Part shown: piece after piece, positions 13,889-52,232 of the stretch
How positions within the stretch are numbered: position 1 is the stretch's first letter
Layout: every line of letters starts with the position of its first letter
Origin: Pseudomonas sp.
Lineage (GTDB): Bacteria; Pseudomonadota; Gammaproteobacteria; Pseudomonadales; Pseudomonadaceae
Assembly: GCF_030684895.1 (NCBI RefSeq)
Contig: NZ_JAUXXP010000039.1
Location: forward strand, 21,947 to 85,946
Length of the DNA: 64,000 bases
Reading direction: 5' to 3'
Notes under the pieces: generated by a model
Databases searched by the model: none
What the model saw: only the letters and a program-made list of their open reading frames with translations
What the model was told of the DNA's origin: nothing
Translations under genes and position numbers: made by a program

Positions 13889-14161
13889 ATGCGTAAACCG
13901 GAACTCGCCGCCGCTATCGCCGATAAGGCGGATCTGACTAAAGATCAGGCAAACCGTGTACTTAACGCGGTACTCGAAGAAATCACCAACGCACTGAACC
14001 GCAAGGACAGCGTCACCCTGGTGGGCTTCGGTACTTTCGTGCAACGCCATCGCGGTGCTCGCACCGGTAAAAACCCGCAAACCGGCGAGCCGGTAAAGAT
14101 CAAGGCCAGCAACACCGTCGCCTTCAAACCGGGCAAGTCCCTGAAAGATGCTGTAAATTAA
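13889..14161 (+). CDS. hupA: HU-family DNA-binding protein
   Basis: 90 aa MRKPELAAAIADKADLTKDQANRVLNAVLEEIT...GFGTFVQRHRGARTGKNPQTGEPVKIKASNTVAFKPGKSLKDAVN. Confidence 0.95.
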   Translation: MRKPELAAAIADKADLTKDQANRVLNAVLEEITNALNRKDSVTLVGFGTFVQRHRGARTGKNPQTGEPVKIKASNTVAFKPGKSLKDAVN

Positions 14162-14168
14162 ACACAGA

Positions 14169-14374
14169 GCGTTTCATTTTCTGTGGATAAGTTCTGCAAA
14201 GCCCCGTAATTCGGGGCTTTGCGCTATCCGAGGTAAGTGAAATTATCGAAACGGTGTTTCATTAAATACTCAAAAGAAAAAGTGATCGCATTGAAGCAGT
14301 AGCGTTTCATTATTGACGCCCATTTAGCCTGTCTATAGGCTTCCGTGCTCGTGAAAAAAGCGCGGTGTTTCATT
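14169..14374 (+). repeat. Four copies of GTTTCATT in two alternating flavours at the left end of the island
   Basis: GTTTCATT at 14171, 14256, 14304 and 14367. Copies 1 and 3 share AGCGTTTCATT; copies 2 and 4 share CGGTGTTTCATT. Copy 2 lies in an inverted repeat GAAAC-GGT-GTTTC (14248-14260). Confidence 0.75.
14196..14222 (+). terminator. Stem-loop terminator downstream of HU gene
   Basis: GCAAAGCCCCGTAATTCGGGGCTTTGC. Confidence 0.65.
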
Positions 14375-15591
14375 TGAAGAATTCAGTCTTTTCGCTCACT
14401 ACCGTCGTCTTCGATAAATTGGGCGGTATAAAACTAAAGCTAGTAACTGAAAGTAGTCAGGTTGATATATTTGCCGGCGCGTATGCTTTGCAACGATTCG
14501 ACAATGGTTCGAAGCCAAATACCATACGAGTTGATCAGAGCTCAATTCTGATCCTGTATCGGTTCTGTGAAATTCAAAAAATAGATTTGATTGAGCGCAT
14601 CGCAAATCTTAATCCGCTTACTATCGGTGAAATTGAGTCTTTCTCATCGTATTGCGGCTTTGCTCAACAGAGCGGCGAGCAGGTTAATCCGAATTGGTAT
14701 GGTGCCCGCATGCGAGGTGCTAAAAAATTTATAGATTACCTGTGGCTGTTCTATGAGGGACGGTGCGCTCGAAACTTAGAGCAACTCAAAATTGCTAAGC
14801 GTTCGTATGAGAGGATGACTGCCGGCTTCAAGTTGTATATGAAAGCCCCTTACAGGGGCGATAAAAAAGACAGGGTCGGCCTTACTCCTGCACTTCAGGC
14901 TAAATTCATTGCAATTATTGACCCTGATGAGAGCAATAATTTAAATCCTTGGAAGATTTATAAGGTGCGATGGAGAAATTATATTCTCCTGCTTCTATTG
15001 ATGTTGGGCGGAAATCGTAAAGGTGAGACGTTGTTGTTGAAGCTGAACAATTTCCAGCTTACAGGAATGCGAAAGTATTACGACATCGTCAAGAACAAAG
15101 ATGTGATTGATTATCCTCGCGCTGAGTCCCCCTCAGTTAAAACACTCGGCCGGCAGGTGGTGTTGCATGATCAACTGGCCGCATTAGTTGAACACTACAT
15201 TGTGAATGTCAGAAAAGAATTCATCGGCTGGCAGTCAACAAGCTATGTCTTCCTGTCTTACCGGGATGGGCGTCCTCTTTCAGTGCAGACTCCTAATTCA
15301 ATCCTGAATGAACTTATAAAACAATATCCAGAATTTGTGGGTCTTCTCAGCCCCCATCGCCTTCGCAATACGTTTCATGATCTTTTGAATCAGGCACTGG
15401 ATAGAAAATTTAAGGGTGAAAGTGGTTTAAGTCGTAAGGTTTTAAAAGCACCTATTCAGGAGGCGGCAGGCGGTTGGGCTAAGAATAGTAATATGCCTGA
15501 GCATTATGCTAAAGGATCGATACAAGCCAAAGTAGCTGAGTTACAAGCCCTACTCCAGCAAGAAGCCCTTAAGCCACAACTGGTTGATTAA
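14365..15591 (+). CDS. ginA: Tyrosine recombinase GinA-like (GInt operon gene 1)
   Basis: 408 aa; C-terminal tyrosine recombinase signature: R (LGGNRKGETLLLKL), HRLRNTFHD, GGWAKNS, EHYAKGS. First of four contiguous genes. Confidence 0.85.
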   Translation: MFHLKNSVFSLTTVVFDKLGGIKLKLVTESSQVDIFAGAYALQRFDNGSKPNTIRVDQSSILILYRFCEIQKIDLIERIANLNPLTIGEIESFSSYCGFAQQSGEQVNPNWYGARMRGAKKFIDYLWLFYEGRCARNLEQLKIAKRSYERMTAGFKLYMKAPYRGDKKDRVGLTPALQAKFIAIIDPDESNNLNPWKIYKVRWRNYILLLLLMLGGNRKGETLLLKLNNFQLTGMRKYYDIVKNKDVIDYPRAESPSVKTLGRQVVLHDQLAALVEHYIVNVRKEFIGWQSTSYVFLSYRDGRPLSVQTPNSILNELIKQYPEFVGLLSPHRLRNTFHDLLNQALDRKFKGESGLSRKVLKAPIQEAAGGWAKNSNMPEHYAKGSIQAKVAELQALLQQEALKPQLVD

Positions 15592-17196
15592 ATGAAAGAA
15601 CTCCATAGTCAGAGGGTGTTGTCCGGCAACGATGAACTTTCAGATTTTTTGCCGGGAGGCACTTTTGTAAAAAGTCGATTGGGCTATGACATCGAATTAT
15701 TTGATGAGTATGGTGGCTTTCGGTCTGCAATAAAACTGCCGGATGATACGGGTGAGTTTGTTTATCTTACATCACAGTATCTTAATCTGTTGGATTTTGA
15801 GTTAAGTGAGATTGCGAGGAGTTATCTAAGATATATCTTGGAGAGATATCATGCTTCAACTGTTAGAATTAAATATAAGTTTCTTGATTTGTTTGCCCGT
15901 GAGATGTCCAAAGGAGTTCATATCAACGACTTCTTGGAAAATATTTCTGTGCTTGAAAATAAAGAAAAGGCAGCATATATCTCTGCTTGTAAGGAATTTT
16001 TGAAGTTTCTATTGCTTTGCGGCTATGAAGATCTTTCACTTGAAGTGTATGAGGATTTCCATAAACTTCGAAATTATTCAGGTAAAGAAAATGCCTATTT
16101 AGCTCTATTTGTAATGGATGATGCCAGAGGGCCATTTACTAGAGAGGAAGTTTCCGTACTGTCAGGTCAGGTTAATAACCAGGCACTTCCGTTGGAATTT
16201 CGCTTGGTGTTAGATCTGTGTTTGTGTTTTGGGTTGAGACCAATACAAATTTCTTTATTGAAAAGAAAAGATTTTATTAAAGATAGTAGGAGCGGATTGT
16301 ATTATCTTAACGTGCCGCGCGTGAAGCAAGATTCGCGCAATCGGCGAGTTCAATTCAGCTCTCGAATACTCACGGAAAGAACTGCAAGTCTTATTCAGTC
16401 TTACATAGATTCTGCAAAAAATCCCGATGGTATTGATCCTGCAGAGCTACCACTTTTTATTAACTCAAAATCGATAAATTTAGAACGAGACGGAAATACC
16501 TTAGGAAGTCACTACTGGGAAGATGCAGAGCGGTTGTCAAGTGACTATTTCTCAGATGAGTCAAAGCGGGCCATACTCTACCAAAAGTCGAGTGGCAAAA
16601 TTAATTATATCCTTTGGGGAAATGAACATAGGCTGCCATTTTCCCCTCGTACCGGAAAGAAATTCAGTTTGTGTGCATATAGATTTCGTTACACGGTTGG
16701 CACGCAAGCAGTAATGTCCGGTTGTTCGCCAGAAGAGCTTGCCGATTTACTCGATCACAATGATACGAATAGCATTAAACACTACTTCAGATTCACTCAT
16801 GAAATGTGGGAGATTCTAGAAAATGCTACGTTGAGTCGCATTGAACAGAAGCAATTCACAGCTGCTTGGATGAGAGAAGGTGACCTTGTAAATAATATAT
16901 ATAGTCACGTATGTGAACCAAGAAATTTCAATGTCATAGGAAAGTGTGCGTCTCAATCTATATGCTTCGAGGAGCCGGCGGTATCTTGCTATTCGTGTGA
17001 CAGATTTTGTCCTAATAAAGATGTTGTAGCACATGAAAGTGCTTTGGAGGGTTTGGTAGAGCGAAAAGATCGCTTGCTAACCGTCAGCACCGCTAATGTA
17101 GTTTCAGTTATAGACCAGGCCATAGCTGGTTGCCGTGCTGCAATCGCCTACTCTGAAGGGCAGGACGTGGTTCTAATTAATGTGAAGGAAGTCTGA
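15592..17196 (+). CDS. ginB: Tyrosine recombinase GinB-like (GInt operon gene 2)
   Basis: 534 aa; LCFGLRPIQISLL (R1), YRFRYTVGTQ (xRxxR box), LLDHNDTNSIKHYFRF (H and Y); C-terminal Cys cluster CASQSICFEEPAVSCYSCDRFC. Starts directly after the ginA stop. Confidence 0.85.
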   Translation: MKELHSQRVLSGNDELSDFLPGGTFVKSRLGYDIELFDEYGGFRSAIKLPDDTGEFVYLTSQYLNLLDFELSEIARSYLRYILERYHASTVRIKYKFLDLFAREMSKGVHINDFLENISVLENKEKAAYISACKEFLKFLLLCGYEDLSLEVYEDFHKLRNYSGKENAYLALFVMDDARGPFTREEVSVLSGQVNNQALPLEFRLVLDLCLCFGLRPIQISLLKRKDFIKDSRSGLYYLNVPRVKQDSRNRRVQFSSRILTERTASLIQSYIDSAKNPDGIDPAELPLFINSKSINLERDGNTLGSHYWEDAERLSSDYFSDESKRAILYQKSSGKINYILWGNEHRLPFSPRTGKKFSLCAYRFRYTVGTQAVMSGCSPEELADLLDHNDTNSIKHYFRFTHEMWEILENATLSRIEQKQFTAAWMREGDLVNNIYSHVCEPRNFNVIGKCASQSICFEEPAVSCYSCDRFCPNKDVVAHESALEGLVERKDRLLTVSTANVVSVIDQAIAGCRAAIAYSEGQDVVLINVKEV

Positions 17197-19854
17197 GTGC
17201 AAAATATAATGGCACAGGATATTTTGCATGAGGAGCTTCGGATTAAGCTAAACCGCCTTGCCAGCAAAGCCGAGGAGAGATTCTCAAAACTCAGTTGTTT
17301 CAATGGGTCAAAGTGGGAGGATCTCTCCTGGTTATATAACGGAAGGCATAATGTTTATTTGCTGGCTCGCGGAGAAACTAATGCAGAGTTAATGCTACTT
17401 AATAAGGTCTTCTTGGTAAGTTATCTCTGGGACAGAAGGGCGGACCACAAGGTGGTATCAGCTGGTCGCGTTATGGACTTATCGGCTGCGGTAAAGTATA
17501 TGGCTGCTCAGGGTGTTGTTAACCTTAGAGGGCTTGATCAATCTTCCTACATGACAACGTTTAAATATATTCAAACACGCTATAAATCACCTGCTAGTGC
17601 ATGTAGATCGCTAAATTATTTTATCAGATTCATCTTTAATTCTTCCTTGACCGTTAGCAATTTTGACCTCATCGGTACGCAGGATCTTCAAGAGAAAGAT
17701 AAGTATGGCCGTGTTGCCCTTGGAGATAAACTGCCGCTTCCAGAATTGGTCAAAGCAATCATAGCGTTGAAGTGGGCAGTGCAAGACCAGTGGGATGGCA
17801 GCTTTCGTGCTCAGATGGATATGTTGTCGGTTCTGACTCAGGCATTTCAATATGGATTAGGCCTAAGAATCGGGGAGGTTCTGCGGTTACCTAAGAACTG
17901 CTTAGTTACAATAAACAGTGAGTTATATTGTCGAGTATGGACAGAAAAAGGTGCGGAGCCAATCGCCAGGTATGTCCCTACTATCTGGAGAGCCGCCCTC
18001 TGTGAAGCGGTTCTCCGAATTGATGCCATCTGCGAACCCTACAGAAAAAGGGCTTTGAGCATTGAAGATGGTTCCTATGCCGAGACTCTCGATTATCGCT
18101 TTCAGGGAAGAACAGAAGCAATTGATCGGCATATTGAGTCTACCCTAAACTGTCTATCTAAGAAAATAGAGTCTAATGTTTCAGCGTCTGAAAGACAGTT
18201 GCGCCTCCTGAAGTATCTGCCGGATGAAGAACTTGTTGAGCTCAAGAATTTGCGTGAGTACTTACCATTTGCCTCGAATTCGCACGACTCTACTTCACTC
18301 CTTAAATTCTACAAAAAAAACGGATTTAAGATAACTTCAAAATCACTCGGAAAGGTAAAGTGCGTTTATTATGTACGAGGATCTGATGTTAAGCAGCGAC
18401 TTGCTCAATTGATAGAGTTTCGCCGCAATATTGTTTTATATTCTGAGTTTTTTGAGGTGCTCCATAAACGACCACCTGCAGGAAGTCGGTCTAAGGATGT
18501 ACACGCTCTAAAAGATAGGTTGCAGTCGCAAAGCCTGGCTTCTTTGGAAGCCTTTGTCTTGACGGGGGAGTCGTGTCTTTATGGTGCGAGGATAGTATAT
18601 CTTAGTCGTGACGATGCAGTTGCCGCAATAAGAAATATTGTCAGTGGTGGGTATGATTATCGCGCTTACATTCCGATATTAGATGCTGAGGAACTTTATC
18701 CAGAGCTGTTCAACCAGAAGACCATGACCTACATTGCTAATGCAAATGCGGCTGGGTTCTACTCGTTTCTTAGAGTCTCGGAAGAACGAATCAATTTTTA
18801 TAGGCCAGTCGCGAAAAGCAATAGAGTTAAGCATTCTGCCGTATCTGGGTTCTTGGTTGAACAGGCCAGCATTAAAAGTGCCGTTGTAGATGCTTTTGTA
18901 TCAGTTAATACAAAAGTTAAGTCAGAACTAATCCAGGGAATTAAAGAGGAACTTCTAGCGGATGGAGTAGAGATTGGTTCGGCTACATTTGGGATAAATC
19001 AAAAAGTCTCTGATTATTTATTTGTTGTCCCAAGCAATCTTGGCGGTGTGTATAACGAACACATTCCATCTATCCTTGGCTATTTTTCTGTTCTATATGC
19101 GATAAAACCAGCTAAGCAGGGGCAGTCAGCGTTTGTCCGTTACGGTGTTGTAGCCAATGAAGAGATTGTAAGTACGTTTCAGACCCACAAGGGACGACAT
19201 TGGCAAACTAATTCACTTTTTCGGGCGGGCTTGGCTGCAAGTATTGTGAATAAGTGGATGGGAAGATCTGATAGTCAAGGTGATCATTACGATCATCAGA
19301 CTGCTAAAGAACGTGCTGAGAAAGTCGGTGAGCTTATGCTCTCTGAGCAGTCCCGCTTTATTGGTGATCTGGCGAATAAGGTCAAGGCTTGGACTGACAA
19401 TGATATTCCGACCCAGAATGTGCAGACCTTTTTGACTGATATGCTGCAAACCGTACATTACGGTCCGCTTGGGCATTGTTTTCGTGATATTAATTTGAAG
19501 CCCTGCGAATTTCATCTGAAGTGTCTGACCGGCAATTCAGGAAAAGGCTGTAGAGAGTTCGTTGTAGATCTTTTAGATCCAGTTCAAATAAAGCAAGTCG
19601 AGTCAGAGCGTAATAGATCAGAAATTGAGTTGGCGCGGCTTTTTGAAGCCTTGAATAGACCCGGTATCCCGGTAGAGTCTGTTGAAATGCATATCGAACA
19701 TCAAATGGCGATTTTTAGAAATGCTTCTTATATTTTAGATAATTCTGAGGTGGTGCTTAACGAAATTCAAGTTGAAAAGAGTAAGGACTATCAGCCATTT
19801 AGGACCAATGGCTCTGTTCCAAGCGACTGTGTATTCCAATGTGGAGTAGCTTGA
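17197..19854 (+). CDS. ginC: Large tyrosine recombinase GinC-like (GInt operon gene 3)
   Basis: 885 aa; FQYGLGLRIGEVLRLP (R1), RHWQTNSLFRAGLA, NKWMGRSDSQGDHYDH; Cys-rich tail CFRDINLKPCEFHLKCLTGNSGKGC. GTG start directly after the ginB stop. Confidence 0.85.
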   Translation: MQNIMAQDILHEELRIKLNRLASKAEERFSKLSCFNGSKWEDLSWLYNGRHNVYLLARGETNAELMLLNKVFLVSYLWDRRADHKVVSAGRVMDLSAAVKYMAAQGVVNLRGLDQSSYMTTFKYIQTRYKSPASACRSLNYFIRFIFNSSLTVSNFDLIGTQDLQEKDKYGRVALGDKLPLPELVKAIIALKWAVQDQWDGSFRAQMDMLSVLTQAFQYGLGLRIGEVLRLPKNCLVTINSELYCRVWTEKGAEPIARYVPTIWRAALCEAVLRIDAICEPYRKRALSIEDGSYAETLDYRFQGRTEAIDRHIESTLNCLSKKIESNVSASERQLRLLKYLPDEELVELKNLREYLPFASNSHDSTSLLKFYKKNGFKITSKSLGKVKCVYYVRGSDVKQRLAQLIEFRRNIVLYSEFFEVLHKRPPAGSRSKDVHALKDRLQSQSLASLEAFVLTGESCLYGARIVYLSRDDAVAAIRNIVSGGYDYRAYIPILDAEELYPELFNQKTMTYIANANAAGFYSFLRVSEERINFYRPVAKSNRVKHSAVSGFLVEQASIKSAVVDAFVSVNTKVKSELIQGIKEELLADGVEIGSATFGINQKVSDYLFVVPSNLGGVYNEHIPSILGYFSVLYAIKPAKQGQSAFVRYGVVANEEIVSTFQTHKGRHWQTNSLFRAGLAASIVNKWMGRSDSQGDHYDHQTAKERAEKVGELMLSEQSRFIGDLANKVKAWTDNDIPTQNVQTFLTDMLQTVHYGPLGHCFRDINLKPCEFHLKCLTGNSGKGCREFVVDLLDPVQIKQVESERNRSEIELARLFEALNRPGIPVESVEMHIEHQMAIFRNASYILDNSEVVLNEIQVEKSKDYQPFRTNGSVPSDCVFQCGVA

Positions 19855-20312
19855 TTGTGACTACGTCTACTGAGCAATGGGGTAAAGCTTTTTCGGTATT
19901 GCAACAATTTGAAAGACAGCTGATAGATCCTTCAAACTTTGGGTGGAAGTATATTACCGATAAGTCTGGTGTATCTAAGCCGACCCTTTGGCGAAACAAG
20001 GAATTTGAAAAAGAGTTTCAACGTATTAAGGAAGTTGTCAAAAGTTATGCTCGTGGTGAGAAACAGTTCGATCAAGAGGTTTCACTGAAAGCGGCCAGAG
20101 ATCGTGATCGAGATCACCAGATCGAGGTGCTCAAGGCACAGGTCCAGGAGTTGACGAAGCAATTAAATAGGGAGCGCGAAAGACTCATATACGCCTCTAT
20201 GATTGCTCGCCGTAAGAATATCGATCCTGCGGAATTCTTAGATGAGAGCCCAGTGTTTCGTAAGCCTGCCAAAGGCGGCTCGGTGGTCAAGCTGCCATCA
20301 AAGGGGCACTAG
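19839..20312 (+). CDS. ginD: GinD-like small HTH/coiled-coil protein (GInt operon gene 4)
   Basis: 157 aa overlapping the end of ginC; HTH-like ITDKSGVSKPTLWRNKEFEKEF then coiled-coil IEVLKAQVQELTKQLNRERERL. Confidence 0.75.
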   Translation: MWSSLIVTTSTEQWGKAFSVLQQFERQLIDPSNFGWKYITDKSGVSKPTLWRNKEFEKEFQRIKEVVKSYARGEKQFDQEVSLKAARDRDRDHQIEVLKAQVQELTKQLNRERERLIYASMIARRKNIDPAEFLDESPVFRKPAKGGSVVKLPSKGH

Positions 20313-20324
20313 CCAAGTCGGGTG

Positions 20325-20610
20325 CCATCATCTGGCTTTGTACTGGCATTTAAGGCCAAATAGCTCTTGCTGTACTTTTGCTCCGCGGCCAGCCCCTCAA
20401 TGCCACCCTGTCCTCGAAACCGATGGGGTTGAGCTTCTCATCTCGGTCGATGCGGCGCATAACTAACTACTTGGCGTTGGCGGAGAGATAGAGTTCCGGC
20501 ACCGCAATTCCCGCCGCCCTTGCCGCGGACATACAACGGTACTCGTTTACCGCCAACCTCGATAACTCCTCCTGGCCGCCCTTGATGATCAGGCCAGAGG
20601 TTTTCGAGGC
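20325..20610 (-). pseudogene. Degraded HipA-like kinase fragment
   Basis: Minus strand LIIKGGQEELSRLAVNEYRCMSAARAAGIAVPELYLSANAK-stop-LVMRRIDRDEKLNPIGFEDRVALRG then frameshift to GLAAEQKYSKSYLALNASTKPD; truncated at both ends. Confidence 0.65.
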
Positions 20611-20611
20611 G

Positions 20612-20703
20612 AGACCTGGCACATAGCAGGCTGCCAACCACATAAGTAACCCGAAAATACTGGCCACAATCGGCGGAGGTATCCTGTTTTCCAGTGTTCG
20701 CAT
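20612..20703 (-). pseudogene. 5' fragment of an isoprenylcysteine methyltransferase-like membrane protein fused to the HipA remnant
   Basis: MRTLENRIPPPIVASIFGLLMWLAACYVPGLA resembles an ICMT N-terminus, then runs directly into HipA-like sequence. Confidence 0.45.
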
Positions 20704-20750
20704 AAAAGTGCTCGATAACGCAGCCACAGCGTTTGCGCCAGTCGCTATGT

Positions 20751-21395
20751 TTAGCGTACTTTTTGCAGTTCGCTCTGCACTAGTTCTAGCAGCGGCTCCG
20801 GGCCGAACTTCGTCAGCAGCGTGCCGTTGACGAAGAAAGTTGGCGTGCCTTGAATCCCCACTTTCTTAACGTCCGCTGCGTCTTTAGCCAGGATGTCGTC
20901 GATAGCCGGCGAGTTCATCGTGGCGCGGGCCTTCTCGACATCCAGGCCAACTGCTGCTGCGGCTTCCCAGGCCTTCTGCGCTTTCGCGTCGTCATGCCAC
21001 AGCGGCTGGGCCTCCAGCACGGCTGCTAGCACAGGCTCGTAAAGCCCCTGCATTCGCGCCGTCTCCAGCAGGCGCACGGCCTCTTCTGAACCTTTGTGGA
21101 ACAACACATAGCGCACGACCAGACGCACGTCCTGTGGGTACTGCGCCATGATTTGCTTTACGTAGGGGAAGAACGCCCGGCAGCTTTCGCACGATGGGTC
21201 GAAGAACTCGACGATGGTGACCGGCGCCTTGATTGGCCCAAGGGTTGGCGAGTGGAAACGTACCAACGAACTGCTCGCCTGGGTGACTGCTTGAGTCTCC
21301 TGAGGTGCTGAAAAACGCTGATAGAGCACTGCCGCAGCGATAAAGCCGGCAATGGTTACAGCGCTGATGGTCAGTACGATGGCACGTCTATTCAT
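20751..21395 (-). CDS. DsbA-family thioredoxin-fold protein
   Basis: 214 aa; APVTIVEFFDPSCESCRAFFPYV (CxxC) and GIQGTPTFFVNGTLL. Confidence 0.88.
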   Translation of the reverse strand: MNRRAIVLTISAVTIAGFIAAAVLYQRFSAPQETQAVTQASSSLVRFHSPTLGPIKAPVTIVEFFDPSCESCRAFFPYVKQIMAQYPQDVRLVVRYVLFHKGSEEAVRLLETARMQGLYEPVLAAVLEAQPLWHDDAKAQKAWEAAAAVGLDVEKARATMNSPAIDDILAKDAADVKKVGIQGTPTFFVNGTLLTKFGPEPLLELVQSELQKVR

Positions 21396-21829
21396 ACAAG
21401 GGTTCTCCGGCGAATCAGGGCAAGAAGCAAGACGATGGCGGTGAAAGCCGCCAGGGAAAGCAGCGGCAGCGGCACGCTACCAAAGATCAGCATATCGGCC
21501 CCGGAACAGGAGGTTCCGGCGCTACACGGCTTGAGGTTTTCTGGAAGTATGCCCATGAACAGCAGGGAGTGATACAGGGCGATTGCCCAACCGATAACGG
21601 CCAGGGGCAAGGCGTAAAGCCAAACGGCGAAGTCCGCGCGATAACAGGCGACCGTCAGCATTACCCCCAAAGGAAACATGAAGATGCGCTGGAACCAGCA
21701 CAGCACGCATGGGGTTTTGCCCATGACTTCACCGATAAACAAGGCGGCTAGGGTTGCGGCCACAGCCAGCAACCACACAGAGAGCAGCAAACCCCAGGGG
21801 TTAGCGGAGGGGTGACTCTGGCTTCTCAT
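21392..21829 (-). CDS. Disulfide bond formation protein DsbB family
   Basis: 145 aa; GKTPCVLCWFQRIFMFPLG (CxxC) and four TM segments; overlaps the dsbA-like start by 4 nt. Confidence 0.88.
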   Translation of the reverse strand: MRSQSHPSANPWGLLLSVWLLAVAATLAALFIGEVMGKTPCVLCWFQRIFMFPLGVMLTVACYRADFAVWLYALPLAVIGWAIALYHSLLFMGILPENLKPCSAGTSCSGADMLIFGSVPLPLLSLAAFTAIVLLLALIRRRTLV

Positions 21830-22090
21830 CGTTATTTACTCGCCATTTTCCTTAAATAGGGATGGCACGTTAGCGGGCCCGCAGCAGCTGTCGATTGGCT
21901 TTGTGTTACAGCATGCGTCCTGCACAGGAACCGGTCGATTCGCTTGGCGTTGCAACCAGCAGGCACAGCAACTATCGAGCTGGGCGGTTCATCTTGATGA
22001 CGAAGCTCCCATTAAGGCTGGGGCTGGCAACTACAACGTGAATCGCGCCGGGGGTTTGTAAATACTTTCCGCGCTCTTCTAAGGCGATGG

Positions 22091-22561
22091 TCAATGACGG
22101 TGGCTTTTCCCAACATGGGTGTGCCCGTCATCCGGAAGCGCATTGACTCCGCCAGTGGTGTTCAGGCGCTGGAGGATTCCGCACTCGTCTACGCCCCGCT
22201 CAGAAGCGCAGCGGTGGCGCAACTCAACCAGCTGTTTTTGCAGCGCCAACAGGCTGGTCACGCGTGCTTGCACATGCTCAATGTGCTCATCCACTAAGCT
22301 ATTTACACCCTCACAGTTTTCCTCTGGCCGATCCATCAGCGCCAGCAAACTTCTGATCTCGTCCAGGGTCATGTCCAGCGTTCGGCAGTTGCGAATGAAC
22401 GTAAGCCGCTCAAGGTGCTCACTGCTGTACAGGCGGTAGTTACCCTCGCTGCGAGCCGGAGCCGGCAACAGCCCCTCGCGCTCGTAATAGCGAACCGTTT
22501 CAACCTGGCAATCGGCAAGCTTGGCCAGCTCTCCAATTTTCATGAAATACCTCTTCGACAA
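22091..22561 (-). CDS. cadR: MerR-family Cd(II)/Pb(II)-responsive regulator CadR
   Basis: 156 aa; MKIGELAKLADCQVETVRYYEREGLLPAPARSEGNYRLY; conserved Cys; C-terminal HTHVGKSHRH; divergent from cadA. Confidence 0.92.
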   Translation of the reverse strand: MSKRYFMKIGELAKLADCQVETVRYYEREGLLPAPARSEGNYRLYSSEHLERLTFIRNCRTLDMTLDEIRSLLALMDRPEENCEGVNSLVDEHIEHVQARVTSLLALQKQLVELRHRCASERGVDECGILQRLNTTGGVNALPDDGHTHVGKSHRH

Positions 22562-22565
22562 ACGC

Positions 22566-22596
22566 TTGACCCTGTAGTGGCTTCAGGGTGTTCACT
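22566..22596 (+). promoter_or_regulatory. CadR-type operator/promoter of cadA
   Basis: -35 TTGACC (22566-22571), dyad ACCCTGTAGTGGCTTCAGGGT (22569-22589), 19-bp spacer, -10-like TTCACT (22591-22596): MerR-family promoter architecture. Confidence 0.8.
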
Positions 22597-22625
22597 CTGC
22601 ATAACTGATCAATGAGGATACCCCC

Positions 22626-25061
22626 ATGGCTGGCTGCTGCAGTGATGAACACAAACCTGAAGCGGTTTCAAATGATGTCTGCTGTGACCCCAATGAGGCA
22701 ATTAAGTGCTCCTCCGCTACAGCCTCAACGGTAAATGCCGTAGCTGGCTCCAGGCTCAGCAGCTTTCGCATTGCGCAAATGGACTGCCCTACCGAACAGT
22801 CGCTGATTCAGGACAAGCTGAGCAAGCTCGCAGGCGTAGATAAGCTCGACTTCAACCTGATCAAACGGATTCTTGGGGTATGGCACAACTTGCCGTCGAC
22901 CGCCCCCATCGAGGAGGCGATCTTGTCCCTGGGAATGCAGGCAGAACCGCTCTCTGCTGAAGGGCAAGCCCGCATCAAAATTGAACAGATGGACTGCCCA
23001 ACGGAAGAAAAGCTGATCCGCGACAAGCTCTCCTCAGTGCCCGGCATCAGCGCGCTGGAGTTCAACCTGCTGCAACGCGTACTGACGTTTAGCCACACAG
23101 CAGAAGCATTGCCAGCAGCACTGGCCGCGATTCGCGACCTTGGTTTCACGCCAGTGGTTGAGGATTCAGCAACAGCAAATGAAGAAGCGCAAGGAACCCC
23201 GCGCAAGAAAGCCTGGTGGCCCTTGGCGCTCTCGGGCGTGGCCGCCGTATCGGCGGAAGTGATCCACTTTGCCGAGCTTGCGCCAGATTGGGCTGTGGCT
23301 GGCGTGGCGCTGCTCGCCATTCTGCTGTGCGGCCTAACGACCTATAAAAAGGGCTGGATCGCGCTGAAGAACCGCAACCTGAACATCAATGCGCTGATGA
23401 GTATCGCGGTGACCGGTGCGGTGCTGATTGGGCAATGGCCAGAAGCGGCCATGGTCATGTTCCTCTTTTCTGTAGCAGAACTGATCGAAGCGAAGTCATT
23501 GGATCGGGCTCGCAATGCCATCCGCGGCCTGATGGATCTGACGCCGGAGCGCGCCACGGTGCAGCAGATCGATGGCACATGGCTTGAAGTTGACGTTAAA
23601 ACTATCGCCGTAGGCGCATTGGTCAGGGTAAGACCGGGCGAACGAATCGGTCTCGACGGCGAGGTTACGTCCGGCAACTCCACCATCAACCAAGCGCCCA
23701 TCACGGGGGAAAGCCTGCCCGTAGAGAAAACCATTGGCGACCCGGTTTTTGCAGGAACCATCAACGAAGCCGGCTCCCTGGAATACCGCGTCCTAGCCGC
23801 CGCTGCCAACACCACGCTGGCACGTATCATTCACGCGGTCGAAGAGGCGCAGGGTTCACGTGCGCCGACCCAGCGCTTTGTCGATCAATTCGCCAAGGTA
23901 TACACCCCTGTCGTATTCCTATTCGCCCTAGCTATCGCCATTGTGCCGCCACTCTTCATGGCCGAGCCCTGGTACGACTGGATCTACCGTGCTTTGGTGC
24001 TGCTGGTGGTCGCCTGCCCTTGCGCCTTGGTCATATCGACGCCCGTCACCATTGTCAGTGGCCTGGCAGCGGCGGCGCGTAAAGGCATTCTGGTCAAAGG
24101 CGGCGTCTATCTGGAAATCGGTGGCAAGCTTGGCTTCCTGGCACTCGACAAAACCGGAACCATTACTCATGGCAAGCCGGTACAGACCGATTACATGCCG
24201 TTGGTTGAACAGGATTCAGAACTCTACCGTACTCATGCTGCCAGCCTCGCCAGTCGCTCTGACCACCCGGTTTCGCAGGCAATAGCCAAGCATGCCACTG
24301 AGAATGGCCTGACGTTTGCTGCCGTTGAGGGATTCGAAGCCCTGCCGGGTCGAGGTGTTCGAGGCACCATCGAAGGCATAGATTTCCACCTGGGTAACCA
24401 CCGCCTGGTGGAAGAGCTTGGCCTCTGCTCACCCGAGCTGGAAGCGACGCTGGAGCGTCTCGAACGCCAAGGTAAAACAGTGGTGGTGCTGTGCAATCCG
24501 CAGCGTGCCATTGCCCTGTTCGCCGTTGCCGATACCGTCAAGGACTCCAGCCGCCAGGCAATTGAGGAGCTTCACGCGCTTGGCGTGAAGACCACAATGC
24601 TGACCGGCGATAACCCGCACACCGCAGATGCGATTGCACAGCAGGTAGGCATCGACGAGGCACGCGGCAACCTTCTGCCAGTCGACAAATTGCAGGCCAT
24701 TGAAGCATTGCAGGCGCGCGGCTACGTTGTAGGGATGGTCGGCGATGGCATCAACGATGCGCCGGCGCTGGCGAAGTCTGAAATCGGTTTCGCCATGGCC
24801 GCCGCCGGCACGGACACGGCCATCGAAACTGCGGATGTGGCCTTGATGGATGACGACCTGCGCAAGATCCCGGCCTTCATCCGCCTGTCTCAACAGACCG
24901 CCGTCATCCTCAAGCAGAACATCGTGCTGGCGTTAGGGATCAAGGCCCTGTTTCTCGCCATTACCTTAACGGGGCAGGCGACGATGTGGATGGCCGTCTT
25001 TGCCGACATGGGTGTCAGTCTGCTGGTGGTGTTCAACGGCCTGCGCCTGCTTAAAAAGTAG
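22626..25061 (+). CDS. cadA: Cd/Zn/Pb-translocating P1B-type ATPase CadA
   Basis: 811 aa; two N-terminal MDCPTE HMA motifs, CPC (ACPCALVIS), [19 protein letters not shown]. Confidence 0.95.
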   Translation: MAGCCSDEHKPEAVSNDVCCDPNEAIKCSSATASTVNAVAGSRLSSFRIAQMDCPTEQSLIQDKLSKLAGVDKLDFNLIKRILGVWHNLPSTAPIEEAILSLGMQAEPLSAEGQARIKIEQMDCPTEEKLIRDKLSSVPGISALEFNLLQRVLTFSHTAEALPAALAAIRDLGFTPVVEDSATANEEAQGTPRKKAWWPLALSGVAAVSAEVIHFAELAPDWAVAGVALLAILLCGLTTYKKGWIALKNRNLNINALMSIAVTGAVLIGQWPEAAMVMFLFSVAELIEAKSLDRARNAIRGLMDLTPERATVQQIDGTWLEVDVKTIAVGALVRVRPGERIGLDGEVTSGNSTINQAPITGESLPVEKTIGDPVFAGTINEAGSLEYRVLAAAANTTLARIIHAVEEAQGSRAPTQRFVDQFAKVYTPVVFLFALAIAIVPPLFMAEPWYDWIYRALVLLVVACPCALVISTPVTIVSGLAAAARKGILVKGGVYLEIGGKLGFLALDKTGTITHGKPVQTDYMPLVEQDSELYRTHAASLASRSDHPVSQAIAKHATENGLTFAAVEGFEALPGRGVRGTIEGIDFHLGNHRLVEELGLCSPELEATLERLERQGKTVVVLCNPQRAIALFAVADTVKDSSRQAIEELHALGVKTTMLTGDNPHTADAIAQQVGIDEARGNLLPVDKLQAIEALQARGYVVGMVGDGINDAPALAKSEIGFAMAAAGTDTAIETADVALMDDDLRKIPAFIRLSQQTAVILKQNIVLALGIKALFLAITLTGQATMWMAVFADMGVSLLVVFNGLRLLKK

Positions 25062-25077
25062 GGTTGGAGGATTGAAG

Positions 25078-25425
25078 ATGAAAGCAGCATTGCAACTCGC
25101 AATTGAACAAGCCTTTCAGCAGGCCCGGCAGGCCATGCAGGAACAGCGCAGTACAGATGCCTTTCAATGGCTGGAGCGCGCGCACATCCTGACTCAGCGC
25201 CAACCTTTGCTGCATGCCAGGTCACACTGGCTGATGCTCACGCTCGGCTGGCAAATTGGCGATTATCGCGAGGTGGCGGGGCAAATACCGCGCATTGTCG
25301 CGGCCCTGCTGTTTTCCAGAATTTGGGTGCCCATCGGCAATACCGGCCGCTCGAGGATCAGTGCTTTCGCGCCCATGCCCATCTCTCAGGAGTTGCAGCG
25401 ACTTCTCCAAGGAGGAGAACAATGA
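25078..25425 (+). CDS. DUF3703-family protein
   Basis: 115 aa; MKAALQLAIEQAFQQARQAMQEQRSTDAFQWLERAHILTQR; between cadA and lspA. Confidence 0.7.
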   Translation: MKAALQLAIEQAFQQARQAMQEQRSTDAFQWLERAHILTQRQPLLHARSHWLMLTLGWQIGDYREVAGQIPRIVAALLFSRIWVPIGNTGRSRISAFAPMPISQELQRLLQGGEQ

Positions 25426-25934
25426 AGTCACTTCCTGGAGTGACACACTTTATCGCTCCCTGGCGTTGGTGGACGCTAGCGCTGGCCATTGCCTCGGCCG
25501 ACCAAGCGCTCAAGAGCGCAATTGCGGGGGCGCTACCGGTCGGCAGCGTCATTCCGCTGGCCCCGTTCTTCAATCTGGTTCATTTCTGGAATACCGGTGC
25601 AGCGTTCAGCTTCCTGGCTGACGCGGGTGGTTGGCAGCGTTACTTTTTCAGCGTCATCGCCTTGGTCGTTTCGGTGGTGCTGGCTCTGATATTGCGTAAA
25701 CCCAGAGCCAACAGCGAAGCCCTAGGCTATAGCCTCATCTTAGGCGGTGCCGTTGGCAATCTGATTGATCGAGCCTCGCAAGGCCATGTGATCGACTACC
25801 TGGATTTTTACTGGCAGTCCTGGCATTGGCCTGCGTTTAACCTGGCGGATATCGGTATCGTCGGTGGTGCGACCATGTTGATCCTGAGCAGCTTACTGAA
25901 CCCGAATGAGGAAACCGGCCGAGCCAGAGAATGA
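25422..25934 (+). CDS. lspA: Signal peptidase II (LspA) paralogue
   Basis: FWNTGAAFSFLAD, GGAVGNLIDR, HVIDYLDFYW, FNLADIGI motifs; ATGA overlap with DUF3703 gene. Confidence 0.92.
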   Translation: MKSLPGVTHFIAPWRWWTLALAIASADQALKSAIAGALPVGSVIPLAPFFNLVHFWNTGAAFSFLADAGGWQRYFFSVIALVVSVVLALILRKPRANSEALGYSLILGGAVGNLIDRASQGHVIDYLDFYWQSWHWPAFNLADIGIVGGATMLILSSLLNPNEETGRARE

Positions 25935-26677
25935 AAGACTTGCCCTCAACAGGCGCGGTGCGCTGGGCAGGCCATGCCTGGGTGGGGCCCGGCATCGGCA
26001 TCTTTCATGGCCGTGCCGGCCACCAGGATTGGCACCACCATCAGGCACATCAGATCTCAGCGGGTCTCGATTCACCTGTATTGGTTGAAACGCCGCTGGG
26101 CATTCAAACAGGATCGGCCGTCTTCATCCCGGCCGGCTTGCCGCATCGGCTCAGCGCCAACCGAGTGCTATCGATCTATCTGGATGCAGTGTCCGATGAG
26201 GCGCGTGCTTTGTGTGGCAGCGAAACAGCGCGGGTGATTGAGATCGCGCCGGGGGATATCACGCCGATTATCGAGGCGCTACGTGAGCCAGGGCACACTG
26301 CACTTCAGGTAAGAGCGGGGGTGCGCCAATCACTGCAACTTTCCGATCCGCCGCCTTCAGATCCTCGTTTGACCACTGTGGTTGAGGCGCTGCGTAGTGG
26401 CCAAATGGGACGCGACGAAATGGCCGCGTTGGTGCATTTATCCCCCTCACGGTTTTCCCACTGGTTTGTAGAGCAAACCGGCCTGCCGCTGCGCAGCTAT
26501 GCGAAATGGTTGCGTCTCACGCAGGCCCTGCAATATGTGGCCAAAGGTGTACGACTAACCGAAGCAGCTCATGCAGCGGGCTTTTCTGACTCGGCGCATT
26601 TCTCCCGGACATTCCGGACGCTGCTGGGCATCGATCCTTCTTCCGCACTGGCTGAGGTCGATCTTCAGGAGTCATAG
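25931..26677 (+). CDS. AraC-family transcriptional regulator
   Basis: 248 aa; cupin-like N-terminus; C-terminal HTH LSPSRFSHWFVEQTGLPLRSYAKWLRL / AAHAAGFSDSAHFSRTFRTLLGIDPS. Confidence 0.88.
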   Translation: MKDLPSTGAVRWAGHAWVGPGIGIFHGRAGHQDWHHHQAHQISAGLDSPVLVETPLGIQTGSAVFIPAGLPHRLSANRVLSIYLDAVSDEARALCGSETARVIEIAPGDITPIIEALREPGHTALQVRAGVRQSLQLSDPPPSDPRLTTVVEALRSGQMGRDEMAALVHLSPSRFSHWFVEQTGLPLRSYAKWLRLTQALQYVAKGVRLTEAAHAAGFSDSAHFSRTFRTLLGIDPSSALAEVDLQES

Positions 26678-26745
26678 CTCTTTCGTTCAAGCCGAAAGCG
26701 GGTCTCCCCACATACAGTCATGGCTCCCTACCCAGGAGCTGAGCG

Positions 26746-27615
26746 ATGCCTATTTTCCTGCGATTCCCCCTACGCTGGCTGAGCTATCCACTTGTGTTTG
26801 GTGGCTGTGCCGCCTTCATGCTCTGGGCGCTGTACGCGGGAGTGCCGTATTGGCCCACCACACCGGTAGTCGCCGCGGTGGGTCTGTTAAGCGTCGCGGG
26901 GTTAGAGCGCATCCAGCCTTTTCGCGAAGCCTGGCTTGAGGATCATCAAGACACCGCGACCGACCTACTGCACATGCTGGTGAATCTCTCCGTCATCCAG
27001 TTCACCGCTGAAATCCTGGCCAGGCTGGGCGATGCAGTGCCAGCTACGGTTCGTCTCTTCCCAGTCGAGAGCCCACTTTGGCTGCAACTGCTGCTGGTCG
27101 CCGCCGTGCTCGATCTGAGCCTGTATGCCATGCATCGTATCAGCCACCATGTACCCTGGCTGTGGCGTTTTCACATGATTCATCACAGCGCCGAGCGGCT
27201 GTACTGGATCAACGGGGAGCGCCGACACCCCTTGCACGCCGCACTCATGGCCGGTCCGGGGCTGGTGATTCTGCTCGCATCAGGTGCTCCATCCGCAGTG
27301 GTTGCTACCTGGTTTGGCATTTTGACCGTGCACTTGGCGTTCCAGCATGCAAACCTGGACTACCGACTGGGATGGCTGCGCCACATCATCGGGGTTGCTG
27401 AAATTCATCGCTGGCATCACAAGCGCGACTTTGCGGATGCCCAGGTTAACTTCGGAGAGTTTCTGATGGTGTGGGATCGACTGTTTGGCACGTTCTACGA
27501 CAGCGCAGGGAAGCTGGGAGAGGCAGAGGTTGGATTGCATGAAAAGGACTATCCCAAAGACTACCTTGGACAGTTGACCGAACCCTTTGGGCGAGACCTT
27601 ACAAGCCAAGGCTAA
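26746..27615 (+). CDS. Sterol desaturase / fatty acid hydroxylase family membrane protein
   Basis: 289 aa; His motifs HRISHHVPWLWRFHMIHHSAE and EIHRWHHKRD. Confidence 0.88.
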   Translation: MPIFLRFPLRWLSYPLVFGGCAAFMLWALYAGVPYWPTTPVVAAVGLLSVAGLERIQPFREAWLEDHQDTATDLLHMLVNLSVIQFTAEILARLGDAVPATVRLFPVESPLWLQLLLVAAVLDLSLYAMHRISHHVPWLWRFHMIHHSAERLYWINGERRHPLHAALMAGPGLVILLASGAPSAVVATWFGILTVHLAFQHANLDYRLGWLRHIIGVAEIHRWHHKRDFADAQVNFGEFLMVWDRLFGTFYDSAGKLGEAEVGLHEKDYPKDYLGQLTEPFGRDLTSQG

Positions 27616-28082
27616 CGGATTCTCTTGCGAAGGGCTGCCGCTAGGTGCAACACGATGCCCCTAGTGAGTGGCTCTGGCTAGCTGATGAAAGCGCGCGCCC
27701 GTTGAGCCGATGCCACCCAACGTAAGCTCGCTCGCCCGCAACCAATGTGAGCCCAAGGCTATGCCAGTCGCAGTTAATCTGAGCTGGAGATCGCATCGAT
27801 TGCGAGCTCGGCCGAACTCAAACGCGAGCTGATTCAACTACTGGTTCATGGCTCGAAACCATCAGCAGAGTGGTGCACAACCACTGGAATGGGCGACTCA
27901 TATCCTCTGGAGCAAGTGGCCCATTTCACTGCAATACATAGCGTTGCAGTGAGCTGATCGCCTCTCTAGCGAATGACCTGGGCCAACCCAAGCTGGGCGC
28001 TCTCACGGCCTATACGCCGTTTTTGTTGAAAACCTGCACTTAAATGTCGCTTTAAGACAACTTTTATTGCCGCCTTGTGAAG

Positions 28083-28102
28083 ATTACAGAATTGTAATTT
28101 TC
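28083..28102 (+). promoter_or_regulatory. Putative CzcR/CopR-like box upstream of oprD copy 1
   Basis: ATTACAGAATTGTAATTTTC: ATTACA-N4-TGTAAT dyad plus TTTC tail. Confidence 0.6.
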
Positions 28103-28240
28103 CAATCATCTTCAAGTTATCTTCAGCTTGCAAGGATAGGGCTCAGCTCCCCAAAGGCGCAGAGCGCTTGAGGGTGCAATACCTATAAGAACGCCATGGC
28201 GAAAACTAGACTAATAACTGCCAATATAAAGGAGCAATAA

Positions 28241-29566
28241 ATGCTTAATAAAACCAAACTATCCCTTGCAGTATTTTCGGCGATTGTCAGTGCAGCTCCG
28301 CTCATGGCGGCCGCAGAAGAGCAAGCCGAAGGTTTTGTAGAAGGTAGCAGTTTCAATATTCTCAACCGTAACTTCTACATGAACCGTGACTTTCGTAAAG
28401 GTCAGTCGAGCAACACTGACAATGGTTATACTGAAGCTTGGGCACACGGCATCATTGGCCAGTTCGAGTCGGGCTTTACCCAAGGCACCGTAGGCTTTGG
28501 TATTGATGCCTTCGCCATGCTCGGCCTTAAACTGGATACCGGGGATGGTCGATATGGCCCAGGTGGTACTGTTAATCTGCTGCCGGTAAATAGTGATGGT
28601 GAAGCTGAAGATAACTACTCCAAAGTGGGTGGTGCAGTAAAAGCCCGGCTATTCGACACCGTTGTCAAAGTGGGTGATGTGTTCCCCATGACTCCGGTGG
28701 TTCACTACGGTGACTCCCGCCTGCTACCGGAAAGCTTTCGCGGCGTTACGGTTGAGAACACCAGCTTTGATGGTTTGACCCTTCAGGGTGGCCGCCTGCA
28801 TGCCATGAGCCAGCCGCAGGTCAGCACCATGCGTGATGAATTCGCAACCTTCTATGCGGGCTCTGTCGCGTCGCCATGGGTTGCCTATTTCGGCGGTGAC
28901 TATTCGCTAAATGACAACCTGAGCTTTAGTCTCTATAGCAGCCAACTCAAGGATGCTTGGAAGCAGCACTATGCCGGTACGTCCTTCACCTACCCGCTGA
29001 CCGACAGTGTTTCCTTGTTCGGTGGTTTGAACTACTACAAAGCTGTCGATGACGGCCAGCAGCTGCTGGGTGAGTTCGATAACGACATTTACAGCGGCAA
29101 AGTGGGTGTGCAGTTCGGTGCACACAGCGTTGCCCTGTCGCACCAGCGCAACAACGGCGACGATGATTTCGACTACCTGCGCCAGTCTGATTCCATCTTC
29201 CTCGACAACTCTATTCAGTACAGCGACTTCAACTCGCCGAAAGAGAAGTCCTGGATGCTGCGCTACGACCTAGATATGGCCAGCTATGGCGTTCCTGGAC
29301 TGACCTTCATGACGCGCTATGCGCTGGGTACAGATGCGGACTACTCCGACGCCAACAATGTGTATATGCGTCGTGATGCCGATGGTAATCCGCTGACCGA
29401 CCAGAAGCGCTGGGAGCGCAACATCGAAGCCAAGTACGTCGTACAAGCTGGCTCGCTGAAAGATATGTCCTTCCGCGTTCGCCAGATGACTACCCGCGCA
29501 ACGGATTACGAGTCGGATCTGGACGAGGTTCGTCTGATCGTCGAGTACCCACTGAGCGTGCTCTAA
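28241..29566 (+). CDS. OprD-family outer membrane porin (copy 1)
   Basis: 441 aa; signal peptide, EGFVEGSSFNILNRNFYMNRDFRKGQSS..., C-terminal DLDEVRLIVEYPLSVL. Confidence 0.92.
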   Translation: MLNKTKLSLAVFSAIVSAAPLMAAAEEQAEGFVEGSSFNILNRNFYMNRDFRKGQSSNTDNGYTEAWAHGIIGQFESGFTQGTVGFGIDAFAMLGLKLDTGDGRYGPGGTVNLLPVNSDGEAEDNYSKVGGAVKARLFDTVVKVGDVFPMTPVVHYGDSRLLPESFRGVTVENTSFDGLTLQGGRLHAMSQPQVSTMRDEFATFYAGSVASPWVAYFGGDYSLNDNLSFSLYSSQLKDAWKQHYAGTSFTYPLTDSVSLFGGLNYYKAVDDGQQLLGEFDNDIYSGKVGVQFGAHSVALSHQRNNGDDDFDYLRQSDSIFLDNSIQYSDFNSPKEKSWMLRYDLDMASYGVPGLTFMTRYALGTDADYSDANNVYMRRDADGNPLTDQKRWERNIEAKYVVQAGSLKDMSFRVRQMTTRATDYESDLDEVRLIVEYPLSVL

Positions 29567-29633
29567 AAATGGATGGGCGGGCGGGCTCTAAAAGCCCTGC
29601 CCGCTCATGCATAACAAGATAGATAGTTATTAG

Positions 29634-29649
29634 ATTTCAAGAATGTAAT
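29634..29649 (+). promoter_or_regulatory. Putative CzcR/CopR-like box upstream of PtrA-like gene 1
   Basis: ATTTCAAGAATGTAAT, degenerate match to ATTACNNANNTGTAAT. Confidence 0.4.
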
Positions 29650-29758
29650 GTTGAGCTCACGCTGCTGTTAGCTTCACCCCCGTAAAATTCACTCGAACTT
29701 GCAGAACTTGTCCATGAACCTCGACAAGCTACTAATTGAATTTTACGAGGCCTGCCTT

Positions 29759-29992
29759 ATGAAGATGTTGAAAGCTCTAGTTATTGGATCGGTACTTCTT
29801 GTCGGCTCCACACAGACTTATGCAGAAGATGGCTATGATCGCTCAATGAAAGCTCAGGAAAAATTTCGAGCAGATCAAAAACGAATTCACGGAACTGAGC
29901 CTTCTGCCAAACCGGCGGACGAACTAAAGGTTAAGACCAGCAACCAAAATCGGGCCAATACCGATATTAAAAAAGAAACCAACGCTGACTAA
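29759..29992 (+). CDS. PtrA-like small secreted protein (copy 1)
   Basis: 77 aa; MKMLKALVIGSVLLVGSTQTYAEDGYDRSMKAQEKFRADQKRIHG; signal peptide then AEdGyDRs core shared with copies 2 and 3. Confidence 0.65.
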   Translation: MKMLKALVIGSVLLVGSTQTYAEDGYDRSMKAQEKFRADQKRIHGTEPSAKPADELKVKTSNQNRANTDIKKETNAD

Positions 29993-30058
29993 CCGCCCAC
30001 TTCCGAACGATGTTCACCTCTAGAAGCTCCCGAGCTCCTTTGGAAAGAGGTGTACCCT

Positions 30059-30085
30059 AAGCGCCCTTCGGGGCGCTTTTTTTAT
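30059..30085 (+). terminator. Rho-independent terminator
   Basis: AAGCGCCCTTCGGGGCGCTTTTTTT. Confidence 0.8.
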
Positions 30086-30450
30086 TTAATCTTTAATAAA
30101 AAAGACTCACTGGGAGTTTAAACCTCCAAGCTAGAAAACTAACTCTACTCTTCCGCAAGTCATTCATGTCTGCAACAAGCCATCGCTGTCAGCGTGTAGC
30201 AAGAAGGGCAAAATGATACCGGTGCAGGCCTTTAGATTGATCTGCCTGATATCTGCAAAGGCACTGGCTATCACCCCGATGCTAGAACACGGTGTCATTT
30301 GAATACCGCGCCCTTGCACCGTCAGCAGATACCTACTCAATAGCTAGACGCCGTGCCCATCTCAATTTTTCATGATTCAGGCCATCCAAGAGTATCGCCG
30401 CGCTCTCCGCTACCTCATGTAAGCTGAAGTTTTTACTCCTTGAGGATGCT

Positions 30451-31419
30451 ATGAGTAGGGATGCGCTTGAACAAAACCAGATACCGATCTATTTCGTTGC
30501 GGTCATTGCAGCGGCAATCGGTGGGTTAATAGCTCCTGCAGCTACGCAGAGCCTGAACGCATTAGTGACCCCGACTATCGCCGTGCTGATGTACGCGATG
30601 TTCCTGCAAATCCCCTTTCTTGATTTCCGCGAGAGTCTTAGCAACAAACGCTTCATGTCTGCCTTGCTGATCGCCAATTTTGTACTGATTCCACTGTTGG
30701 TGTGGGCACTAACCAGAGGGCTCGCAGAACACCCGGCAGTACTAATCGGCGCTCTTCTGGTTTTGCTCACTCCCTGTATCGACTACGTGGTGGTATTTAC
30801 GCACATAGGCAGAGGCGACTCGCGTGCGATTCTTGCAGCAACCCCCATCCTCTTGCTGTTGCAACTTGTGCTGTTGCCTGTGTATTTGGCTTTTATGCTA
30901 GGGGAGCAATCCCAAGTCGTTATCTCGATAGCGCCTTTCGCTGAAGCCTTTCTCGCACTGATTGTCGTGCCTTTATTGCTCGCGGTGGCTACAGCAGCCT
31001 TGGCTAAGCGCTCGCGGATCGTAGGTCGCTGGAACACCGTATGGGCATGGATGCCAGTCCCTGCGATGGCGGCAGTTCTCATTGCGGTGGTTGGGTCGCA
31101 AATCTCGCCAGTGGTACGTGATATCGACCAGCTTTTACCGGTGATCCCGGTGTATATCGGTTTCATGCTTTTGGCCCCCGTAGTGGGCGCACTCGCTTCA
31201 AAAGCTTATAAACTGCCCGCCTCGACGGCGAGAGCGGTTACTTTCAGTACCGCCACACGTAACTCGTTGGTGGTTCTTCCGCTGGCCCTGGCATTACCTG
31301 AAGAAATACGAGGGCTTGCAGCCGCAGCGGTCATCACCCAGACACTGGTTGAGTTGGTGGGTGAACTTGTCTACATCCGGGCAGTGCCGATTCTCATCTG
31401 GCGTAAAAAAAGCCGCTGA
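30451..31419 (+). CDS. Arsenic resistance protein / bile acid:Na+ symporter superfamily permease
   Basis: 322 aa, about 10 TM segments; LLTPCIDYVVVFTHIGRGDSRAILAATPILLLLQ resembles ACR3-like permeases. Confidence 0.75.
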   Translation: MSRDALEQNQIPIYFVAVIAAAIGGLIAPAATQSLNALVTPTIAVLMYAMFLQIPFLDFRESLSNKRFMSALLIANFVLIPLLVWALTRGLAEHPAVLIGALLVLLTPCIDYVVVFTHIGRGDSRAILAATPILLLLQLVLLPVYLAFMLGEQSQVVISIAPFAEAFLALIVVPLLLAVATAALAKRSRIVGRWNTVWAWMPVPAMAAVLIAVVGSQISPVVRDIDQLLPVIPVYIGFMLLAPVVGALASKAYKLPASTARAVTFSTATRNSLVVLPLALALPEEIRGLAAAAVITQTLVELVGELVYIRAVPILIWRKKSR

Positions 31420-31470
31420 GGACGTCACGGCACAGTCACCGCCCACATTGAGCGGTATTTACGGTAAGCA

Positions 31471-31499
31471 AAAAGCCCCGCTCAAGAGCGGGGCTTTTC
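31471..31499. terminator. Bidirectional terminator between convergent permease and czcA
   Basis: AAAAAGCCCCGCTCAAGAGCGGGGCTTTT. Confidence 0.8.
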
Positions 31500-31525
31500 A
31501 GTTGCAAACGAATAGCGCTGTGAAC

Positions 31526-35001
<3,476 letters not shown>

Positions 35002-35015
35002 AGCTCGACTCCGAA

Positions 35016-36605: not shown

Positions 36606-36757
36606 TGGTAACTCCAAATTATCAAAAGTATTGAATTTGACTCATGCCCAGGCGGCGACTAAACGCGCTCAATAAACATGCAGCCGCCAGGAAAGCAGGC
36701 GAGGCTTCATGTCGCATGACGCGACCATCTAAGGCGTTATGTAGGTGTGAGAGATGC

Positions 36758-38041: not shown

Positions 38042-38196
38042 TTAAAGTCCTCCACAGAACTAGCTCTGCTGGAATATAATGAAGGCCTTTATATTTATTA
38101 ATCCCGAGGGATATCGAGGATTATCGCTTGGGAAAATAAGTAGAAAGCCAATTCCCGGCAGAATGTAGTGCTCCATGCCTATCAGCAAGGTGACTG

Positions 38197-52223: not shown

Positions 52224-52232
52224 GTCAGGCTC

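Follow-up and report, generated by a model that had tools for sequence, protein, structure and literature searches.

Results

Layout of the locus

Directly after an HU gene, the stretch of Pseudomonas DNA studied here (64 kb, hereafter the window) carries four tightly packed genes, whose ORFs, according to the ORF list, all lie on the plus strand and either abut or share a 16-bp overlap (Table 1). The number, sizes and position of these genes were correctly given in the preliminary description of this DNA, as was the observation that the operon is more AT-rich than its surroundings: its GC content is 42.6%, compared to 62.2% for the left flank and 56.5% for the part of the cargo that lies within the window.

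Table 1. Positions in the window of the HU target gene, the left end of the element, the gin operon and the cargo
Feature	Position	Strand	Basis or remark
HU gene (hupA-type, 90 aa), target gene	13889..14161	+	Pfam Bac_DNA_binding, E 1.5e-33
6-bp overlap at attL, GAAAGA, host-derived; putative crossover	14143..14148	+	attL/attR/attB vs unoccupied sites on IncP-2-type plasmids and chromosomes
Left end of the element, TGCTGTAAATTAAACACAGAGC	14149..14170	+	Identical in copies from different hosts
Four GTTTCATT repeats (at 14171, 14256, 14304, 14367)	14171..14374	+	Candidate recombinase-arm or regulator sites
Stem-loop GCAAAGCCCCG-TAATT-CGGGGCTTTGC just after HU	14196..14222	+	Kept in all aligned relatives
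ginA, tyrosine recombinase, 408 aa	14365..15591	+	Pfam PF00589 Phage_integrase; R218 K259 H331 R334 W371 Y381
ginB, tyrosine recombinase, 534 aa	15592..17196	+	NCBIfam NF041502, E 1.4e-50; R216 K245 R366 H389 Y398
ginC, tyrosine recombinase with split catalytic domain, 885 aa	17197..19854	+	R224 K251 H664 R667 R690 Y698
ginD, putative HTH plus coiled coil, TnpC-like auxiliary, 157 aa	19839..20312	+	Operon position 4
Cargo, left 44 kb of about 63 kb	20313..64000		Continues on contig C55

Element-specific sequence begins at position 14149, and the last codons of the HU gene (GAT GCT GTA AAT TAA) are in fact supplied by the element, while empty relatives read GACGCGGTCAACTGA instead. Four of the five GTTTCATT copies found in the window fall within 204 bp at this end, and they are largely conserved in the aligned relatives, the first copy being degenerate in GD04019. 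Because the fourth repeat is overlapped by the GTG start of ginA, the true start of this gene may lie slightly downstream. As for the stem-loop, it could possibly act as a replacement terminator for the HU gene; it was not flagged by the terminator scan, and a promoter scan of the left end found none.

As the contig ends where the window does, the island, which is about 70 kb long, has its right end on another contig of the same genome, C55, after a gap of approximately 310 bp as judged from P. peli and MAG C1. In P. peli (G272), both ends lie on one contig, and in MAG C1 (G083) the whole element is a single contig of 70,207 bp, whose two ends coincide with the att cores, where it shares sequence with each of the flanking contigs (141 bp at the left). 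We rejected these contig ends as proof of a circular form, as the start, CTGAAAG, lies one base beyond where a circle junction would place it, and because this is a metagenome assembly (k141), in which the presence of the same element in several hosts would explain the breaks equally well. In five relatives (G014, G012, G008, G013 and G001), hupA is followed by an ordinary intergenic region and then by a gene whose product begins with MKFRFLLWML; on C55, this same gene is followed by recG. The refuting case named in the preliminary description, relatives with the gin genes as ancestral core genes at this locus, was looked for and not found, the genes being absent after hupA in these five. Empty HU sites could be identified, as could matching att sequences and, at the right end, the side that belongs to the hupA-recG locus.

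Three tyrosine recombinases and a small fourth protein

Recombinase signatures had initially been attributed to all three large proteins. This was borne out by Pfam for GinA, which scores above the Phage_integrase cut-off (E 1.7e-6) and keeps its six catalytic residues in 21 of 21 aligned sequences, and by the NCBIfam integrase match for GinB, which is sub-threshold in Pfam Phage_integrase (E 3.5e-4) and in which the His of the HxxR box is not conserved. For GinC, no Pfam match was obtained at a threshold of 0.001 (best 0.025), and the attribution stands on its set of catalytic residues. All six of them (Table 1) are present without exception in the 21 aligned sequences, and likewise in all 23 of a second set that partly overlaps the first. 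In every sequence checked, the R, K, HxxR and Y of GinC are split by an insertion of 190-410 aa; K and H are 189-413 residues apart, compared to 72-84 in GinA. A profile search of solved structures returned XerA as a weak match (E 0.0077), spread over three collinear segments, with both catalytic boxes covered. The structural model of GinC is poor (mean pLDDT 63.5), and the matches of its predicted fold to Cre, XerD and lambda Int, with a best E of 4e-3, are used here as supporting evidence only. GinC has been described as lacking the first catalytic Arg (PMC5385486) and the RHRY motif (PMC10214605); contrary to the former description, the first Arg is present here, and the conservation of these residues corrects the view of GinC as a protein without catalytic residues.

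GinC and GinD matched no Pfam or NCBIfam family at the usual thresholds, and searches in PADLOC and PHROGs returned no useful match for either. We also noticed conserved Cys clusters at the C-termini of GinB (C452, C458, C466, C469) and GinC (C761, C770, C776, C785), which are possibly metal-binding.

Attachment sites and exchange of six base pairs

The right end on C55 reads GGGTTATT-GAAAGA-CGCGGTCAACTGAG, following the pattern GGTTATT, six base pairs, HU remnant, and the element is bordered by imperfect direct repeats (TGAAAGATGCTGTAAATTAA and TGAAAGACGCGGTCAACTGA) that agree at 15 of 20 bases. On the YC-AE1 megaplasmid, for which empty sister plasmids with the same flanks provide the attB GCGCT-CAAGGA-CGCGATCAACTGA, attL (GCGCT-CAAGGA-TGCCGTCAATTAG) keeps the CAAGGA of the target, and attR (GGTTATT-GAAAGA-CGCGATCAACTGA) shows a foreign GAAAGA. 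The same placing is seen on three chromosomes: in G077, where attB and attL both have GAAAGA and attR has CAAGGA (empty site from G012, hupA segment 98% identical); in P. peli, with GAAAGA in attB and attL and TAAAGA in attR (empty site from G014, 94%); and in GD04019, with GCGCGA in attB and attL and GAAAGA in attR (empty site from G041, about 85%). Hence all four informative cases have the six bases of attB at attL and other bases at attR. This is a small number, and base identity around the site is limited to the plasmid pair. Based on these four cases, the crossover would lie in the 6-bp overlap of the GAAAGA type, and the six bases at attR are read as carried along from the donor site. 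The attR of the G077 chromosome carries CAAGGA, which are the six bases of the HU site of IncP-2-type plasmids. An early reading that placed the overlap at TGCTGT/CGCGGT was dropped, as the bases found exchanged in G077 and on the plasmid point to GAAAGA/CAAGGA. This placing of the six bases is the strand-biased rule given for SE and Tn554 in a paper (PMC10214605) that lists the movement of GInts as not tested and does not know of a strand bias in it.

A response regulator at the right end

At 170-200 bp inside every intact right end lies a minus-strand gene for an atypical response regulator, a receiver plus winged-helix protein (Pfam E 1.8e-10 and 3.1e-10). When these sequences were read by eye, the acidic pair usual at the start of the receiver appeared as HE or HD, and the phospho-acceptor Asp was also missing from the GD04019 copy. 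Homologues with an E of 1e-39 or better were found in 7 of 400 genomes, namely six with this gin operon and a partial genome, G089, that has the right end only. Because of its placing at intact ends, its near confinement to genomes with the element, and a GC content close to that of the operon in the last 1 kb (43.7%), this response regulator looks like a part of the element and not of its cargo. No such gene is annotated in the GInt of pTROUS1. The copy in P. indica (L164), where the gin operon is intact and the right end is missing together with the response regulator, is a decayed element.

Cargo

The cargo (55-56.5% GC) encodes DsbA/DsbB-like proteins, a CadR/PbrR-type regulator, a Cd/Zn/Pb P-type ATPase, two CzcA/CusA-type RND systems, a CopRS-type two-component system, a CopA-type multicopper oxidase, a bufferin maturase, Ni/Co efflux and part of a Cu P-type ATPase. 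The segment corresponding to window positions 25379-42266 is missing in P. peli, hence the cargo varies between copies. Among the cargo genes tested, no transfer gene was recognised except for a TraX-like one. Two further features of this region deserve mention: the bufferin maturase (MNIO family) is followed by a DUF2063 gene (56414-58026), likely forming a copper-binding peptide cluster, and two OprD porin genes (28310-29567 and 49427-50683), about 76% identical and in direct orientation, could possibly seed internal recombination.

One could argue that a transposon-like metal island merely adjoins unrelated phage-type integrases, given that the cargo has a GC content of its own (55-56%) and shows internal gains and losses between relatives. 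We regard this as highly improbable, since in at least eight relatives the operon, the cargo and the right end all lie within a single pair of att repeats, and the YC-AE1 plasmid has the same two ends around a different cargo. The assignment of the multi-metal resistance set to the GInt, made in the preliminary description, is thus retained.

Distribution and spread

The close homologues found, in eleven relatives, all occupy precisely the same position in an HU gene. They come from P. peli, P. marincola, P. indica, P. alcaligenes, GD04019, MAGs C1 and C24, HGW-13 and G077, and from two plasmids, namely the conjugative megaplasmid of P. putida YC-AE1 and pPSA00476_5 of P. aeruginosa, which has a remnant broken by IS1411. 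GinC matches, mostly from distant GInts, were obtained in 57 of the 400 genomes sampled from the genus; the A-B-C order is kept at the distant loci examined, and the four-gene order in nearly all the distant homologues, which argues against a resemblance limited to unrelated integrases with no conserved synteny. In HGW-13 (L163), a 150-bp MITE-like sequence with GGCCGTTGAAAAAC/TTTTTCAACGGCC inverted ends lies directly at the right junction (attR).

The gin operons of our genome and MAG C1 are 99.2% identical and their left flanks 80.5%; those of P. alcaligenes and GD04019 are 100% identical with flanks at 89.5%; and the G077 chromosome and the YC-AE1 megaplasmid share 99.6% identity over 3.5 kb. 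Because operons that are 99-100% identical reside in hosts with 80-90% identical flanks, these comparisons indicate that the element family moved recently between hosts, and we infer that the element is mobile. The same contrast makes it rather unlikely that the island is an old GInt remnant, with its operon intact and fixed at hupA. Such a reading would draw on close relatives (P. peli, MAG C24 and HGW-13) whose copies, at the same site, could be inherited, and on the losses seen in P. indica and pPSA00476_5; the present copy, however, retains intact versions of all four genes and of both ends.

In the set of sister megaplasmids (113 records), 83 have the HU site intact and in one piece. About 28 plasmids with a broken HU region were considered as further GInt cases and set aside, as those listed break at query position 155 or 171, in the HU terminator, and the att point lies near position 100 in this comparison. 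These IncP-2-type records (L179 1860-2080, H164-H178) carry other insertions, which make the HU terminator a second hotspot, placed immediately past the GInt site.

Discussion

Taken together, our results suggest how this element might move. GinA, GinB and GinC, with GinD, would join the two ends into a circle, copying the six bases that lie to the left of the element, so that the predicted junction (attL x attR) would read GGTTATT-GAAAGA-TGCTGTAAATTAAAC, and the circle would then insert at another HU gene through a strand-biased reaction. Excision as a circle, with all four genes required, is one of the traits by which GInts are defined. Assembly or control would probably be aided by the GTTTCATT repeats, together with the response regulator at the right end, and transfer between cells would probably depend on plasmids, with conjugative IncP-2-type megaplasmids as one carrier. 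It is conceivable, although we would put it at somewhat less than even odds, that these elements form a five-gene branch in which GinA, GinB and GinC are all catalytically competent, the regulator controls the ends, movement is strand-biased as in SE and Tn554, and attR records the previous address of the element. With matched empty and filled sites at hand, existing sequence is enough to read in which direction the six bases are exchanged, and our analysis shows a carrier that brings such islands onto conjugative plasmids common in P. aeruginosa.

Because their order, size and catalytic pattern match those of GInts, the best overall explanation, to which we assign a probability of about 0.93, is that these genes are the recombination operon of a GInt that targets the 3' ends of HU genes, which places the element in a known but poorly understood class. 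Homology was assessed against proxies at recognised GInt sites, the published cut-off being a BlastP E<0.1. GinA, GinB and GinC matched the GInt at an ettA/gdhA site (L102), which we take, from the KT2440 gene order, to be the PP_0674 prototype site, with E values of 5e-15, 1e-16 and 1e-7, respectively, and the ssb-site GInt of pTROUS1 with 8e-23, 1e-21 and 2e-10; they also match the GInt of pTmex-577K. The ginABCD arrangement recognised in the preliminary description is thus upheld, with three consecutive proteins homologous, by proxy, to GinA, GinB and GinC in the same order, and a GinD that resembles the position-4 ORFs of other GInts weakly (E 5.7e-6 at best). GinD has been reported to resemble TnpC (PMC5385486).

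Among the other known systems, RIT elements have three recombinases of 315-410 aa and 34-bp terminal inverted repeats (PMC10214605), whereas the recombinases here have 408, 534 and 885 aa and the two ends of the element differ from each other. Tn554, as described in the same paper, is similar in having two recombinases with a TnpC-like helper and a 6-bp footprint, and is set apart by that description, with three genes and no third recombinase. SE elements (PMC10214605) also have a four-gene operon and a 6-bp overlap, and in them, as in our four informative cases, the six bases of the target end up in attL and the carried ones in attR. That the element is of the SE type and not a GInt is nevertheless very improbable: GinA-D gave no match better than E 1.3 to the SE proteins of pAQU1 (IntA, Tfp, IntB and Srap), the SE sizes are different (545, 614, 671 and 161 aa), the catalytically incomplete protein stands second in SE, and the homology to GInt proteins is clear.

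Compared to the GInts of Bardaji et al. 2017 (PMC5385486), the element described here agrees in the order and proportions of its operon (four adjacent co-oriented genes, three related to tyrosine recombinases and the fourth small), in its tripartite layout (42.6% GC in the operon, 55-56.5% in the cargo and 43.7% at the 3' end), in its insertion at one site with imperfect direct repeats (10-17 nt in the published elements), in its 6-nt overlap, and in its size, which is inside the published range, to about 70-76 kb. It differs in that its AT-rich 3' part is about 1 kb long instead of 0.2-0.4 kb, and carries a conserved response-regulator gene where that paper found no common 3' feature. Its target is also different, as the main text of that work names an ABC transporter gene, ssb and a ribonucleotide reductase gene, and the 3' ends of HU genes are here newly named as a GInt target.
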